Assembly: GCA_018340805.1 (NCBI GenBank)
Contig: JACMZG010001911.1
Coordinates: forward strand, 36,989,200 to 37,053,199
Direction: 5' to 3'
Length of the DNA: 64,000 bases
Source: Microvelia longipes
Lineage: Eukaryota > Arthropoda > Insecta > Hemiptera > Veliidae
A model generated the notes under the pieces. That model was not told where the DNA came from. It saw nothing but the letters and a program-made list of their open reading frames with translations, and ran no database searches. The position numbers and the translations under genes were made by a program. Of this stretch, positions 47,082-53,026 are shown piece after piece. Numbering within the stretch: position 1 is the stretch's first letter; the number at the start of each line of letters is the position of its first letter.

Positions 47082-47104
47082 GTATGATACTATATTTATC
47101 ATAC
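47082..47104. repeat. Hairpin at the element's target site
   Basis: GTATGATA and TATCATAC form an exact 8-bp inverted pair around CTATATT, ending within the 6-bp target duplication on the left side of the Polinton-like element. Confidence 0.4.
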
Positions 47105-47107
47105 TGC
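47102..47107. repeat. Left target-site duplication TACTGC
   Basis: TACTGC lies directly outside the left terminal repeat and is repeated directly outside the right one (52154-52159). Six base pairs is the length made by Polinton/Maverick integrases. Confidence 0.8.
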
Positions 47108-47139
47108 AGTAGGGGCAAAAGGGGCATTCTGGCACCTCC

Positions 47140-47205
47140 TCCACCTCCTCCTCCTCCTCCACCTCCTCCACCGCCACCACCACCTCCTCCTCCACCGCCT
47201 CCTCC
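47140..47205. repeat. CCT-rich triplet repeat in the left inverted repeat
   Basis: The tract is a pyrimidine-rich run of CCT/CCA triplets about 30-100 bp from the element's end, mirrored as GGA/GGT at about 52053-52122. The strand asymmetry could favour unusual DNA structures. The arginine- and tryptophan-rich frames across it have no obvious meaning. Confidence 0.7.
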
Positions 47206-47622
47206 TCAAGCATCTCTTTATAGTTTTATATCCCCCCCTCTCTTTTGCTTTGCATAGTGTAATAACAGTAACATTAAATATGCTTTGCATAAAAATAAAT
47301 AGGTCCCCACCATATAGGTAGAAGCAGGATGATTTTAGGTGTGAAGTAGTAGACCACCCTGGATAAGTGTCTCTCTTAGTAAAAAGCCTTCCCACCACGT
47401 CAAGGTGGAGACACATCGGGAAGGTGTACAGTGCCCCGTCCTCGCACTGTACTATGGCGACCATCCTCTTTAAAAAAATATCGCCTCTATATATTTGTTT
47501 TGTATTTTTTTATATTTTTAATTTTTTTGTATTTTTTTATATTTTTAATTTTTTTTTTTTATATTTTTATATTTTTTCTAACGTATTTACAATTACACTT
47601 ACATCTCGTTAGCGCCATATAG

Positions 47623-47790
47623 GTTTACGGGACGCTATGCCCACGCCAGTGACCTTAAAAGATGGAATATTGCGGTTACGGGACGCCATGCCACGCCAGG
47701 GACCGCTCTGAGGGTTTACGGGTCGCTATGCCACGCCAGGGACCCTCTATGGGTTTACGGGACGCCATGCCACGCCAGGGACCCAAATTA
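47623..47790. repeat. Four subterminal subrepeats of the left inverted repeat
   Basis: The core TTTACGGGACGCCATGCCAC followed by GCCAGGGACC recurs four times, beginning near 47623, 47674, 47714 and 47753. The spacing is about 51, 40 and 39 bp. The units are CpG-rich in AT-rich surroundings. The right inverted repeat has the mirror set (about 51478-51645). Arrays like this could be protein-binding sites for transposition or packaging, which is inference. Confidence 0.75.
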
Positions 47791-47872
47791 TGGCACGCTT
47801 CGCCATACTAGAGTTCCATCTCGTATTTGCGGCAGCTGCTGAGACATGAGTGTAAGGCTATTTAACATATGA

Positions 47873-48226
47873 TTAAACTCTAAGAATAAACTCGAAAATA
47901 AATCCCACTCTGGTTTTTTTTAAAACAACAAATATTTTATCTTCTTCATTCGAACAAATCGGACGAATAATAACTTGACGTCCGTGAAATTTAGGATTAA
48001 CCAATCTTACTTTTATTAAACCAAATTTTCGACCAAGTTGTACATCTTCTTTTACTACGTTTTACAAAATAATTATCAATTTCATTTTTCGCGGATTCAA
48101 CAACTCAAAATCGGACATGTGAATGTTTACACTTCTTTTACCATGTTCTAATCTCAAGAAAGCTACACCTTTAACTAAACAAACTAATACCTTTTTACCG
48201 TCACTTAGATGGTAAATGGTCGACAT
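47873..48226 (-). pseudogene. Small broken gene, possibly PC4-like single-stranded-DNA-binding protein
   Basis: From ATG at 48224-48226 the frame runs 54 codons (stop at 48062-48064), starting MSTIYHLSDGKKVLVCLVKG. Immediately beyond, similar-looking coding sequence continues in the other two frames: one with SAKNEIDNYFVKRSK, and one running to a stop at 47873-47875 just inside the left inverted repeat. The pattern of an LSDGKKV strand, a VKG turn, a basic strand and an amphipathic helix with NEID resembles the PC4/p15 coactivator fold, a short ssDNA-binding dimer. This is a by-eye resemblance without a database match. The breaks may be decay or assembly indels. It lies downstream of the capsid-like gene on the same strand. 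Confidence 0.35.
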
Positions 48227-48303
48227 CTTGCGCAATACTGATTTATTATTGCTCTGCTTTCTTTATTTATACATACCCCCACCCCTCGACCAGACATGTC
48301 TAT

Positions 48304-49911
48304 TCATGTCATTTTATGCACAATGCTAGTCAGGGGGTTGTACTGAACTAATCTATCGTGTAACAATAGACAGTACGCGGTAGTATTTGCCGGGAAATCT
48401 TTTTCAGATTCAAATTCTAATCTCACATCTACCGGACCCTTTTTGATAGACTCTGATTGTTCGAACAATCAATGATTACAACAGGACATTTATTCTTAAA
48501 ATCTGTAAAGGATACGTACGGTAGACTCTGATAAGTGTTGTAGTACGACGTTTGAAACGCCGCGTACATGTGGTATAATAAAGCAAATTTATTTTGGGAG
48601 AATTTTAAATTTAAATCATCGTAGGGGAACTCGTGAATTGAGATAAAGCTTGACATTTGTCAAGTCGCAGTAATCGAAACAACTGGATGCCTTATCGACG
48701 ACGTTATTTCTACCCTTTTGAAAGGCTAAAATTAAAAATCGCGGTTTCTCGAGTTGAGTCGAAGTTTTAATCGACCATACTTGTCGGTTTGACGTAGGTA
48801 ATAGCGGATACTCGTGCATATCCCACGCTCGGAAATGGAGAGAAATTATTTTTTCTGTTTTTAAATAATTAATTAAATTTAGTTTCTGAACTTCGTTAAC
48901 CGAAACGTAAGGTATTTTCCAACAAAGCGATAGTAGTTCAATTTTAACTTTCTCGCGAACTTCTGCCCGTGCATCCGTATCGACGTACGGAACATGTTGT
49001 ACAAAACAATTTGAATCGTTTCTCGCTCTTACTAAAATTAGCTCTTGCTTTACGTTTATCAAAACTTTTCGGTAATCTTCCGCGAATCCTAGTAACGAGG
49101 ATAAAGGTAGACAGACGTTGTACCGGGTGGATGATTCTTCTTGTACTTCATTGAAGGGTATTGTCCATCCCATATTTGTTAGAGAATACGATATAGGCGC
49201 GTGAGATGCAATCCCTTTTAGAGTCGAAGTCATTCCGGGGTTTCTGACTTTATCAATCTCAACTCCACAAATTTCATACCGGATCTCGTCGAATAAAAAC
49301 GGGAATGCGTTGTTGATGAGTCTGTGCTTCGCCGGTGTCGTATTTCCTCCTTCTTTTAAAAATGATAGTTCCAAATATATAAAACTTTCACTCGGAAGCG
49401 AATAAATGTCTTGGATTTGTACCGGTATCCGTATCTCTTCTCCGGCGTCTAGCTTTGAGTTTGCGTACGGATAGTGAGTATGATACTCTAGACTCTCTAT
49501 AGATTCATCATATTCGGGGTGTTCACTTAAATTTAACATCTCTACCATTTTTGGCTCTTCTATGTCTTTGTTACTTACTACATCATCAATAGGTTCATCC
49601 TCCTCATCATCTTCTTCATCCTCCTCCTCATCGTCTTCTTCTTCTTCTTTTCTATCCTTTTCCGATCCACATACTGCCTCGCTAGAGTTATTATAGTTTT
49701 CAATTGACTCATCATGTTTACCTGCAATGGCGTCCTTGTAGAATCCCAACTCTGAAACATCTTCGCGTTCAACCCCCTCACAGTGTTTATCTCGTTGGTG
49801 TCGAAGTAAATTCTTTTTATGTACAAACTTTTTACAGCAGTCTGGACAATTAAATGTCAAGTTTTCAAATCTCTTCTTGTAGAGACTCGAATCACGTATC
49901 TTGGAGAACAT
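48304..49911 (-). pseudogene. Zinc-finger double-jelly-roll capsid-like protein, frame broken twice as assembled
   Basis: The first open part is 431 codons (49911 to 48616). It starts MFSKIRDSS. A C2H2 zinc finger follows (C22, C25, H38, H43), then a long acidic run (about 89-107), then from about residue 155 a domain rich in beta-strand patterns. NAFPFLFDEIRYEICGVEID (201-220) resembles the first jelly-roll loop of Polinton and related capsid proteins. The region with FLILAF and VKLYLN near residues 395-425 resembles the second. Coding sequence continues in another frame to 48429 and in a third to TGA at 48304-48306, with breaks near 48632 and in the run at 48436-48445. The total length, about 530 codons, is normal for such capsid proteins. 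The N-terminal zinc finger is unusual. TATA box at 49960. Capsid assignment is by pattern only. Confidence 0.6.
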
Positions 49912-49959
49912 CTCTGCTCGGTGTCTGGCTCAATACTAAAGTTGGAGCTCCACTAGCTC

Positions 49960-49969
49960 TATATATATA
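49960..49969 (-). promoter_or_regulatory. TATA box of the capsid-like gene
   Basis: TATATATA lies 49 bases upstream of the start codon at 49911, read on the - strand. The distance suits a TATA-driven start a short way before the ATG. It is the mirror of the TATA box on the other gene. Confidence 0.45.
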
Positions 49970-50057
49970 CTAAACGAAAGCTAAAACACCGCTAAAGCGG
50001 CTTCAACAACTCCAGTTATACCCATATTAGCTACAACACAACACCAAATGTGCTCGT

Positions 50058-50750
50058 ATAGGCTCTGCGATAGTTCATATTGGCTCCACATCGGCTCTAA
50101 ATGGCTCATATAGGCTCCACACCGGCTCTAAATGGCTCATATAGGCTCCTACTCGGCTCCAAATAGCTCATACTCGGCTCTAAATGGCTCCACTCTGGCT
50201 CCAAATGGCTCATATAGGCTCCACTCCGGCTCTAAATGGCTCATATAGGCTCTAAATCGGCTCATATAGGCTCTGCGATAGCTCATATAGGCTCTAAATG
50301 GCTCCAAATGGCTCATATAGGCTCCTACTTGGCTCCAACACGGCTCCAAATCGGCTCATATTGGCTCCAACATGGCTCATATAGGCTCCAAATGGCTCAT
50401 ACTCGGCTCTAAATGGCTCATATAGGCTCCACACACCGGCTCCAAATGACTCATATAGGCTCCAACTCGGCTCCAAATCGGCTCATATAGGCTCCACACC
50501 GGCTCTAAATGGCTCCACTCCGGCTCTAAATGGCTCATATAGGCTCCAAAGTGGCTCTAAATGGTTCATATAGGCTCCAACACGGCTCTGCGATAGCTCA
50601 TATAGGCTCCACACCGGCTCTAAATGGCTCATATAGGCTCCAAAGCGGCTCTAAATGGCTCATATAGGCTCCAAAGTGGCTCTAATTGGCTCATATAGGC
50701 TCCCTACTCGGCTCATATAGGCTCAAAATAGGCACCTACTCGGCTCCAAC
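50058..50750. repeat. GGCTC helical-pitch array between the two divergent genes
   Basis: About 690 bp consists of the pentamer GGCTC followed by 5-6 variable bases, over and over, so that GGCTC recurs every 10 or 11 bp on one strand. Common spacers are ATATA, CAAAT, TAAAT and CACACC, and a few units read GGCTCTGCGATA. Higher-order units (GGCTCATATAGGCTCCACAC plus CGGCTCTAAAT) recur irregularly. Open frames on the - strand across it (EPF-AYMSH type) have no start context and are a by-product. It ends just before the TATA box of the + strand gene. Confidence 0.9.
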
Positions 50751-50757
50751 AAGATGA

Positions 50758-50766
50758 ATATATAAG
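50758..50766 (+). promoter_or_regulatory. TATA box of the 174-residue gene
   Basis: ATATATAAG lies about 54-62 bases before the preferred start at 50820, immediately beyond the GGCTC array. Confidence 0.45.
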
Positions 50767-50819
50767 TTTATGATTTAAGGGGATATGATCAGTTGTATCT
50801 CGGCTTCCGTGCTGTCAAG

Positions 50820-51344
50820 ATGCCTTCTACCGCTATTATAGATATTCAAGGGTTTGTAGATAATGAGGGGCAAGTCATCGTTAAAGAGCTCGCATGTTTG
50901 GACCTGGAGACGAAATCGTCTTCGAGCTGGTTATTTTTACCACCTGCAAATTACATTCAAGATTCTAAATCTATGAAAACAAATTCTTGGCTTACATTAA
51001 ATTTTCACGGAATAAACTGGGATGACGGTGATGTTGAGTACGAGCGATTGTATTTAGTGTTTAAACTTTTATCTAATCGGTACACACACTTTGTCGTTAA
51101 AGGTAAAGTACGTTTATTGAAAAAATACTTGCCAAATAATTGCGTCATTATAGATTTACTTGCGATAGAATGTCCCAAAATTAGTTCATTGAGTTATAGC
51201 TGGAGGCCCTGGCTCCTTCATAAGAATAATAAAAAATTTGCTTGCGCTCAGGCTCGAGTATGGAGTTTGTATAAATGGCTCGTAAACGGACCTGCACTCG
51301 GTTTGACCATAAATTTACTACCGATTTCATGTGTAGCCACGTGA
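50820..51344 (+). CDS. Element-encoded 174-residue protein, possibly RNase H/exonuclease-like
   Basis: I chose the ATG at 50820 (MPSTAIIDIQGF) over an in-frame codon at 50793, because it follows CAAG and matches how I recall relatives beginning. The frame is intact and stops 13 bp before the right inverted repeat. IIDIQGF (6-12) followed by KELACLDLE (22-30), a helix with NFHGINWDDGD (61-71), FVVKG (91-95), VIIDL (109-113) near ECP, and a final CAQARVWSLYKWL (142-154) follow the strand and helix order of DEDD exonucleases or the RNase H fold. The first motif has DIQ where active enzymes have DxE. H134 and C142 could be a partial metal site. I recognise related uncharacterised arthropod proteins but no function. 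Divergent from the capsid-like gene. Confidence 0.6.
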   Translation: MPSTAIIDIQGFVDNEGQVIVKELACLDLETKSSSSWLFLPPANYIQDSKSMKTNSWLTLNFHGINWDDGDVEYERLYLVFKLLSNRYTHFVVKGKVRLLKKYLPNNCVIIDLLAIECPKISSLSYSWRPWLLHKNNKKFACAQARVWSLYKWLVNGPALGLTINLLPISCVAT

Positions 51345-51357
51345 GTTTCATTTGTAA

Positions 51358-52153
51358 GGATTTATTTTCGAGTTTATTCTTAGAGTTTAATCATATGTTA
51401 AATAGCCTTACACTCATGTCTCAGCAGCTGCCGCAAATACGAGATGGAACTCTAGTATGGCGAAGCGTGCCATAATTGGGTCCCTGGCGTGGCATGGCGT
51501 CCCGTAAACCCATAGAGGGTCCCTGGCGTGGCATAGCGACCCGTAAACCCTCAGAGCGGTCCCTGGCGTGGCATGGCGTCCCGTAAACCGCAATATTCCA
51601 TCTTTTAAGGTCACTGGCGTGGCATAGCGTCCCGTAAACCTATATGGCGCTAACGAGATGTAGTGTAATTGTAAATACGTTAGAAAAAATATAAAAATAC
51701 AAAAAAAAATTAAAAATATAAAAAAATACAAAAAAAATTAAAAATATAAAAAAATACAAAAAAAAAATATATAGAGGCGATATTTTTTTAAAGAGGATGG
51801 TCGCCATAGTACAGTGCGAGGACGGGGCACTGTACACCTTCCCGATGTGTCTCCACCTTGACGTGGTGGGAAGGCTTTTTACTAAGAGAGACACTTATCC
51901 AGGGTGGTCTACTACTTCACACCTAAAATCATCCTGCTTCTACCTATATGGTGGGGACCTATTTATTTTTATGCAAAGCATATTTAATGTTACTGTTATT
52001 ACACTATGCAAAGCAAAAGAGAGGGGGGGATATAAAACTATAAAGAGATGCTTGAGGAGGAGGCGGTGGAGGAGGAGGTGGTGGTGGCGGTGGAGGAGGT
52101 GGAGGAGGAGGAGGAGGTGGAGGAGGTGCCAGAATGCCCCTTTTGCCCCTACT
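51358..52153. repeat. Right terminal inverted repeat, 796 bp
   Basis: This is the mirror of 47108-47905, ending GGGGCAAAAG-type sequence read inward and closing in CCCCTACT-3'. It differs from the left repeat by a handful of one- to two-base indels, mostly in A or T runs. A TATA-like AATATATAGAGG (about 51765) lies about 30 bases before an outward-facing ATG at 51797. Confidence 0.9.
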
Positions 52154-52162
52154 TACTGCTAA
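51797..52162 (+). other. Outward-facing open frame of 121 codons in the inverted repeat
   Basis: The frame starts MVAIVQCEDGALYTFPMCLH and ends in an arginine/tryptophan-rich run encoded by the GGA/GGT triplets. It runs off the element's end and stops in host DNA. The left repeat has the same frame (47464 to 47099, - strand), also stopping in host sequence but with a different last codon or two. The first 65 or so residues have mixed composition and could be real. The lack of an internal stop argues against a genuine protein. Confidence 0.2.
52154..52159. repeat. Right target-site duplication TACTGC
   Basis: This is the exact partner of 47102-47107, directly outside the right inverted repeat. 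Confidence 0.8.
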
Positions 52163-52811
52163 TATCTATTAAAAATCAACAATCTAAAGTCAACTTCAAT
52201 TACGATAATAACATTGTATTTGATGTTAATTTGATTTTATTCTGTTTAATAATTTAATTTAAAACACTAACATGAAGCTACTGACAAATTATAAAAGCTT
52301 TTTGATAAAACAGAGAGGGGTTTTTAAACAGAGAATTGGAAAGTGATAATGCAGTTGTGAAAACTCTAGAAAAGGCGTGAGTTGGAAACTTGACGACAAA
52401 TAAATACCCGGAGATGTTTGTAAAGCAAACCTTTGAGCCCCAGATTATTGAATTTACATTTAACTGAAGGGCCGGTTTATTTTAGCAGAGCAAGTGCCCC
52501 GGAGCAATGTTATCTTAACTCGATCCTCTCTCATATAACCCGACAGTGTAAAATTTCTTCTATTTTTCCTCGGAAGTACTATTGACGATGACTTAGTGGT
52601 AAAAAAATTAATGTTATTTCTATTTTTAGTCAAATAACAGTTTTGATTAAAGAGTAAATATGTTATTGTCTTAGTTAAATTACATTTACTGTATTTTAAT
52701 ACCCCTTAAGAGCCAAATTAAATGAGACAACACTGCTTTGATATCCTCTCTATTTATGAATATTTACTAGTAATATTAATTGTTAAATTTTGATTCAGGT
52801 TATTGTTATGT

Positions 52812-53026
52812 TTTAATTATAAATAATTAAGAGAAAATAATTTTAGAAAATAATGAATATGTTTTCTTTTAGTGTAAATAAATAAATAAATAAATTATAA
52901 TATATATATATATTATATATATTATATATATATTATTTATTTATTTATATTATTTATTTATTCACACTAAAGGGAAACATTCATTATTTTTTAAAAATAT
53001 TTTCTCTTAATTATTTATTATTAAAA
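52812..53026. repeat. Palindromic foldback around an AT microsatellite
   Basis: The left arm (about 52812-52893) and right arm (about 52933-53026) are imperfect reverse complements: AATTAAGAGAAAAT, AAATAATGAAT and TTTAGTGT followed by AAATAAATAAATAAA occur in both, in mirror order. The centre is (TA)n with TATTATAT units. It is probably a MITE-like foldback or a collapsed palindrome. Confidence 0.6.

Follow-up and report, generated by a model that had tools for sequence, protein, structure and literature searches.

Polintons, also called Mavericks, carry genes for a double-jelly-roll (DJR) major capsid protein and for a penton, as Krupovic et al. (2014; PMC4028283) report. We describe here an element of 5,046 bp in a 64,000-nucleotide stretch of the Microvelia longipes genome (the window; G000:C562:36989200-37053199 of a 664.6-Mb assembly, the one genome studied), which resembles Polintons in its inverted repeats with AG...CT ends, its 6-bp duplication and its DJR capsid gene, and which shares its genome with full-length relatives encoding DNA polymerase B (PolB), integrase and an A32-type ATPase. 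Unlike Polintons, this 5-kb element lacks these three genes and possesses a zinc-finger extension of the capsid protein, a gene termed P2 and an array of GGCTC sites. As it has no recognisable PolB or integrase and its ends are those of a full-length Polinton, its mode of spread is likely that of a satellite of this Polinton. That such compact elements are capsid-bearing satellites of a 12.6-kb Polinton with shared ends is the reading we favour, with somewhat better than even confidence.

The window element and its copies

The element occupies positions 47108-52153 of the window, starts with AGTAGGGGC and stops with GCCCCTACT. Its inverted repeats of about 797 bp align over 802 columns with 2 mismatches and 10 gap positions, and the insertion is young, because the repeat arms differ by just 2 substitutions (Kimura two-parameter distance 0.003 beyond the first 120 bp, n = 672). 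The sequence-only reading of this DNA had proposed a Polinton-like element with such repeats, AG...CT ends and a TACTGC duplication, reduced to a capsid-like gene and two small genes and devoid of replication and integration genes. Alignment and sequence confirm the boundaries (Table 1), the three genes are a PF21738 gene, P2 and MSTI, the first and last being frame-broken in this copy, and the element yielded no match to PolB, integrase or ATPase, nor an adenovirus-type protease. Chance repeats as the source of these features were rejected on the repeat alignments and GGCTC counts. Beside the element, at window positions 52811-53026, lies an AT-rich imperfect palindrome (108-nt arms, 73%).

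Table 1. Features of the compact element, in window coordinates
Feature	Position	Strand	Evidence or remark
Target duplication TACTGC, left copy	47102..47107	.	Sequence
Left terminal inverted repeat, holding the MSTI 3' end	47108..47905	+	Matches the MSTI-side end of C521, 89.6%
MSTI, small gene also present in full-length Polintons	47791..48262	-	tblastn; frame-broken in the window copy
Capsid gene continued in another frame (C-terminal DJR part)	48429..48656	-	PF21738 positions 220-280, E 9.6e-18
Capsid fusion gene (zinc finger/acidic/DJR)	48616..49911	-	PF21738, E 7.9e-68; frame broken near codon 428
Lone C2H2 zinc finger in the N-terminal extension (residues 20-43)	49783..49854	-	PF00096, E 0.018, below the Pfam cut-off
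GGCTC array	50061..50746	+	59 exact GGCTC, mostly at 10- or 11-bp spacing; mean step 10.48 bp
P2, orphan gene of the compact class, 173 codons	50823..51344	+	Open frame; constraint tests
Right terminal inverted repeat, duplicating the MSTI-side end in inverted orientation	51358..52153	-	Repeat alignment
Target duplication TACTGC, right copy	52154..52159	.	Sequence; exact match to left copy

Is this element alone in its genome? A protein search gave at least 108 capsid matches (of 481 first-look candidates, 97 were scored), which fall into 87 loci, and two end motifs gave 79 and 71 genome matches; joining neighbours separated by less than 13.5 kb and adding one further element yielded 39 elements. 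Eighteen of these match the capsid but have neither PolB nor integrase, 14 of them measuring 4,909-5,614 bp and the others 5,988, 7,485, 8,071 and 8,175 bp; an 8-kb element (L034) contains additional long open reading frames (ORFs) and, judged by eye, resembles a nested insertion, and C707:48146205-48151429 matches both capsid and P2. Four further elements hold capsid fragments. Full-length elements with PolB, integrase and capsid number two (12,578 and 12,631 bp) and have the same ends as the compact class, which is the commoner of the two among end-paired elements. PolB without integrase occurs in five (6,001, 7,345, 7,422, 7,609 and 9,960 bp), and ten have neither capsid, PolB nor integrase among the matches listed, two of these ten with P2; gene-less relatives with the same ends measure 3.1 and 3.5 kb. 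Three PolB-only elements (L036, C629:3840128-3847736 and C629:46106592-46113936) are of uniform length, 7.3-7.6 kb, with the same end motifs, and L036 bears the array. The 6-bp duplications are exact in 21 of the 22 elements read at both ends, L040 having one mismatch; the left end of L002 was not located within the 181 bases examined. A one-off deletion is ruled out by the number of like-sized copies, and both expectations of the sequence-only reading, namely many duplication-flanked copies of about 5 kb and full-length Polintons with the same ends, were borne out. An older, diverged 3.8-kb relative (L038, G000:C542:35182078-35186271) has P2, an array and capsid fragments, and suggests that the compact class is not recent.

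Origin, gene content and selection

Five full-length loci (L044/45, L046/47, L048/49, L052/53 and L054/55, the sequences of L054/55 and L047 being partly N) share one gene order: zinc fingers and PolB, A32-type ATPase, an uncharacterised gene, integrase, a 162-aa gene, capsid and MSTI. Their capsid gene is without the zinc-finger part, the integrase combines rve with a chromodomain, the ATPase is of the Pox_A32 family, and the 162-aa gene resembles, by a sequence motif and without Pfam support, an adenovirus-type protease. PF03175 identifies PolB genome-wide and in the L043 piece (E 7.7e-26); the hmmscan results for the long L021 and L046 frames do not include this family. The PF03175 matches of the genome form several groups, whole-domain and split (10-200 / 208-365), and therefore indicate other PolB families or Polinton lineages.

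Compared with the full-length parent on C521, the window repeat matches the MSTI-side end over its entire length and the PolB-side end over the first ~184 bp only; therefore, both compact ends derive from one parental end, and the P2-side copy retains the last MSTI codons. Long inverted repeats recur in other forms: L041 (G000:C562:17817473-17823873; 6,001 bp, with PolB N-terminal sequence and an exact 6-bp duplication) consists entirely of an inverted repeat (57 mismatches over 6,039 columns), and the repeats of L042, L031 and L035 measure 2.1-2.6 kb. Such forms would fit fold-back copying of a linear, strand-displacing replicon. Thus, of the earlier description of the element as reduced, the loss of PolB, integrase and ATPase holds, but a zinc-finger extension, P2, the GGCTC array and a second copy of one end were gained; the 5-kb form thus goes beyond mere shortening of a Polinton.

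The two gene sets are separated throughout the 87 capsid loci. None of the 12 that are integrase-linked has the zinc-finger part or, within 3.5 kb, P2, whereas the 60 with the zinc-finger part include none with integrase within 2.5 kb or PolB within 9 kb and 54 with P2; the other 15 have neither integrase link nor zinc-finger part, and nine of them have P2. Entered into this count were the closer 23 of 129 integrase matches, 24 of 126 PolB matches and the majority of 150 P2 matches; inspection by eye placed no remaining integrase or PolB match within those distances of a zinc-finger locus. The capsid proteins of the two classes are at best 95-97% alike. In the DJR tree the five full-length copies form one clade (support 0.985) next to the compact L027 and L028, subfamily B being separate (0.997), and the MSTI sequences of the two classes intermix in their tree, which suggests exchange.

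The DJR assignment of the window gene, and with it a predicted capsid role, follows from PF21738 and from a fold comparison; the latter alone matched a solved structure, the capsid profile finding no match among Protein Data Bank sequences up to E 10. Relatives of the window gene retain about 536 codons. Among the best 120 of 729 relatives, the closest named ones come from Rhodnius prolixus (56%), Cimex lectularius (53%), a leafhopper, ants and Hermetia, and all lack the N-terminal extension, being 396-428 residues long and covering at most 77% of the 536-residue query; residues 1-85 as query in the protein database found two rabbit zinc-finger entries and nothing else. The named capsid relatives point to a probable insect host, for which mobile genes are a weak indicator. 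For P2, a set of 5.8 billion proteins gave eight candidates, none at E <= 0.001, no solved structure matched, and a single-sequence fold prediction was uninformative (predicted local distance difference test score 30); it may resemble insect 'IDIQGF' proteins, possibly with an RNase H fold, although no search supported this. With the single protein or the alignment as query, no relative in viral contigs was confirmed, and neither these searches nor those of the protein database with P2 and residues 1-85 showed the compact element outside this genome.

Are these genes maintained? Pairwise ratios of non-synonymous to synonymous differences per site (pN/pS) are 0.18 for the capsid domain and 0.55 for the zinc-finger part in 16 compact copies, 0.22 for P2 in 17 copies, and for MSTI 0.64 in 13 compact copies versus 0.20 in full-length copies. 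Variants common to at least two copies are mostly synonymous, both in the compact capsid domain (18 non-synonymous to 56 synonymous, N18/S56; p 5e-17) and in P2 (N5/S21 and one shared stop, p 3e-8), and those confined to one copy look nearly neutral (omega-like 0.75 and 0.66, neither significant), which points to constraint during spread and decay after insertion; within single subfamilies, single-copy capsid variants are somewhat constrained (0.52 and 0.48). Capsid variants of compact copies that are absent from full-length copies stand at N17/S40, and the P2 variants at N0/S11 plus one shared stop in subfamily A and N1/S7 in subfamily B. The unconstrained coding sequence expected of a passive non-autonomous transposon is, accordingly, not what capsid and P2 present.

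The GGCTC array, a proposed mechanism and its rivals

P2 and the capsid gene are read in opposite directions, with the GGCTC array between them; the other 58,954 bases of the window have 21 such sites. All 18 loci read with zinc-finger capsid sequence (the window, L002-L007 and L025-L035) have at least 31 sites, mostly spaced 10 or 11 bp. The array is also present in the PolB-only L017, L018, L022, L036 and L043 and in the gene-poor L037 and L039, and missing from L020, L040, L041 and L042; ten full-length pieces, of which C521 alone was read end to end without N, contain no cluster of six. L037 (G000:C518:33934168-33937686) is a 3,119-bp, almost gene-free relative, the middle of which consists of 119 GGCTC sites. 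Over 26 arrays the mean step is 10.378 bp (sd 0.084), near the helical repeat of DNA. Phase along these arrays is no better kept than in order-shuffled spacings (z -0.7 to 2.0), so our claim is restricted to a step length near 10.4 bp. A 26-place array pattern had 790 genome matches, its reversed control none. Placing roughly one site in each turn of the helix, and known to date from the partial classes alone, the array is the best candidate for a cis site of a satellite advantage, and its alternating GC- and AT-rich half-turns may suit a nucleosome- or bend-favouring role as well. A role as promoter between divergent genes, possible for compact elements, would not account for the array in the PolB-only L018 and L036, where it lies beyond the PolB 3' end.

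In the mechanism we propose, the PolB of the full-length element would copy the compact one from the shared terminal ~180 bp, its integrase would insert it, and ATPase and protease would be supplied in trans, while the capsid fusion and P2 would give the compact DNA an advantage to itself alone, most simply favoured packaging, with the GGCTC array as candidate cis site. The window element combines a gene for a predicted capsid protein with the lack of a replicase gene, as a satellite virus does, and equally has the ends of an autonomous element and many copies, as a passive transposon does. What separates the two is the constraint on capsid and P2, which fits the satellite proposed by the sequence-only reading better than a passive deletion; its dependence on a helper and the formation of particles we infer. 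Several observations weigh against this reading. Pfam recognised no penton gene among the ORFs scanned in the window element, nor in the full-length ones. Shared variants reveal no constraint in the zinc-finger/acidic part (N8/S2) or MSTI (N6/S4), and the p-values above are rough, treating variants as independent though they are not. With compact and full-length capsids so alike, some of the capsid constraint is perhaps inherited from full-length relatives, an objection that does not apply to P2. Moreover, the young window copy is capsid-broken, and 3 of the other 107 capsid matches also reach query residue 431, which suggests that they share its break; copies with a truncated capsid may thus have spread, in line with help in trans and at the expense of any strict requirement for an own capsid.

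If only the ends mattered, the genes would be passengers of a passive non-autonomous transposon, their constraint being inherited from an unsampled full-length Polinton with P2 and a zinc-finger capsid. The gene-less 3.1- and 3.5-kb relatives with shared ends, the broken capsid gene of the window and 22 compact capsid variants, set aside as touching states seen in full-length copies, all speak for this; the absence of P2 and zinc finger from all integrase-linked capsid loci, the separate constraint on P2 in both compact subfamilies and the near-neutral single-copy variants of the very same copies speak against it, and we consider it unlikely. Even less probable is a defensive role, in which the host would keep capsid and P2 products that interfere with the full-length element: both genes are constrained, and a modified capsid could conceivably poison assembly, but the constraint appears across numerous young, dispersed copies flanked by exact duplications and decays after insertion, which fits selection at the level of the element and not of the host. 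We regard a domesticated or defensive function as very improbable.

The PolB-only elements raise a further prospect, that of a splitting, multipartite Polinton with capsid on 5-kb, PolB on 7.4-kb and other enzymes on full-length elements, the parts being mobile alone and kept by complementation. Three of the five end-paired elements with PolB and no integrase fall within 7,345-7,609 bp, the array recurs in the five PolB-only elements named above, L018 and L036 bear a 3' remnant of P2, and the PolB gene of five PolB-only copies shows constraint (N14/S43 among shared variants, N6/S16 among private ones). However, no element with integrase alone was observed, which leaves the full-length element apparently indispensable, and the PolB sample is five copies, with 97 sites set aside for variation common with full-length copies; we regard this as quite unlikely. 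In a bolder version, rather unlikely in our view, the 5-kb and 7.4-kb elements would spread separately, each selected, beside the 12.6-kb parent, and the helically phased array of both would be a loading tag for the zinc-finger capsid, such that partial elements are packaged over the parent.

Comparison with known systems

If the satellite reading is true, an animal genome harbours a virus-like transposon together with a multicopy satellite that evolved from it and whose own capsid gene shows signs of selection. The evolution of satellites and of multipartite genomes, for which RNA viruses and phages are the usual evidence, would then have a DNA example, with copies that persist in a chromosome assembly and can be dated there, and one could test whether particles are still formed by Polintons. 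Repbase lists non-autonomous Polintons; among the searchable papers, no title dealt with a satellite Polinton that bears a capsid gene, subscription papers and Repbase reports lying outside that search.

The closest parallel in gene content is satellite tobacco necrosis virus, a satellite virus that encodes its own capsid and no replicase, as does the compact element, which differs in being chromosomal linear DNA with inverted repeats and in having a helper that is inferred only. Capsid-forming phage-inducible chromosomal islands (cf-PICI) are parasites of bacterial genomes that bring their own capsid genes and use a helper; the compact element may be read by analogy as a parasite of this kind, although the cf-PICI machinery is bacterial and unrelated. 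Virophages such as Sputnik and mavirus are larger and have more genes, and no giant virus is implied for the compact element. In its anatomy, with internal loss and a duplicated terminus, the element recalls defective adenovirus genomes, in which duplication of one terminus yields a long inverted repeat, something that linear replicons copied by strand displacement can give rise to; unlike these, the compact forms are integrated and multicopy. Finally, a theory set out by Leeks et al. (2023; PMC10159356) holds that genomes dropping a shared gene product can drive genome splitting. The capsid-only and PolB-only classes resemble the complementary cheats of that account, which is theory; here, the full-length form persists beside them.

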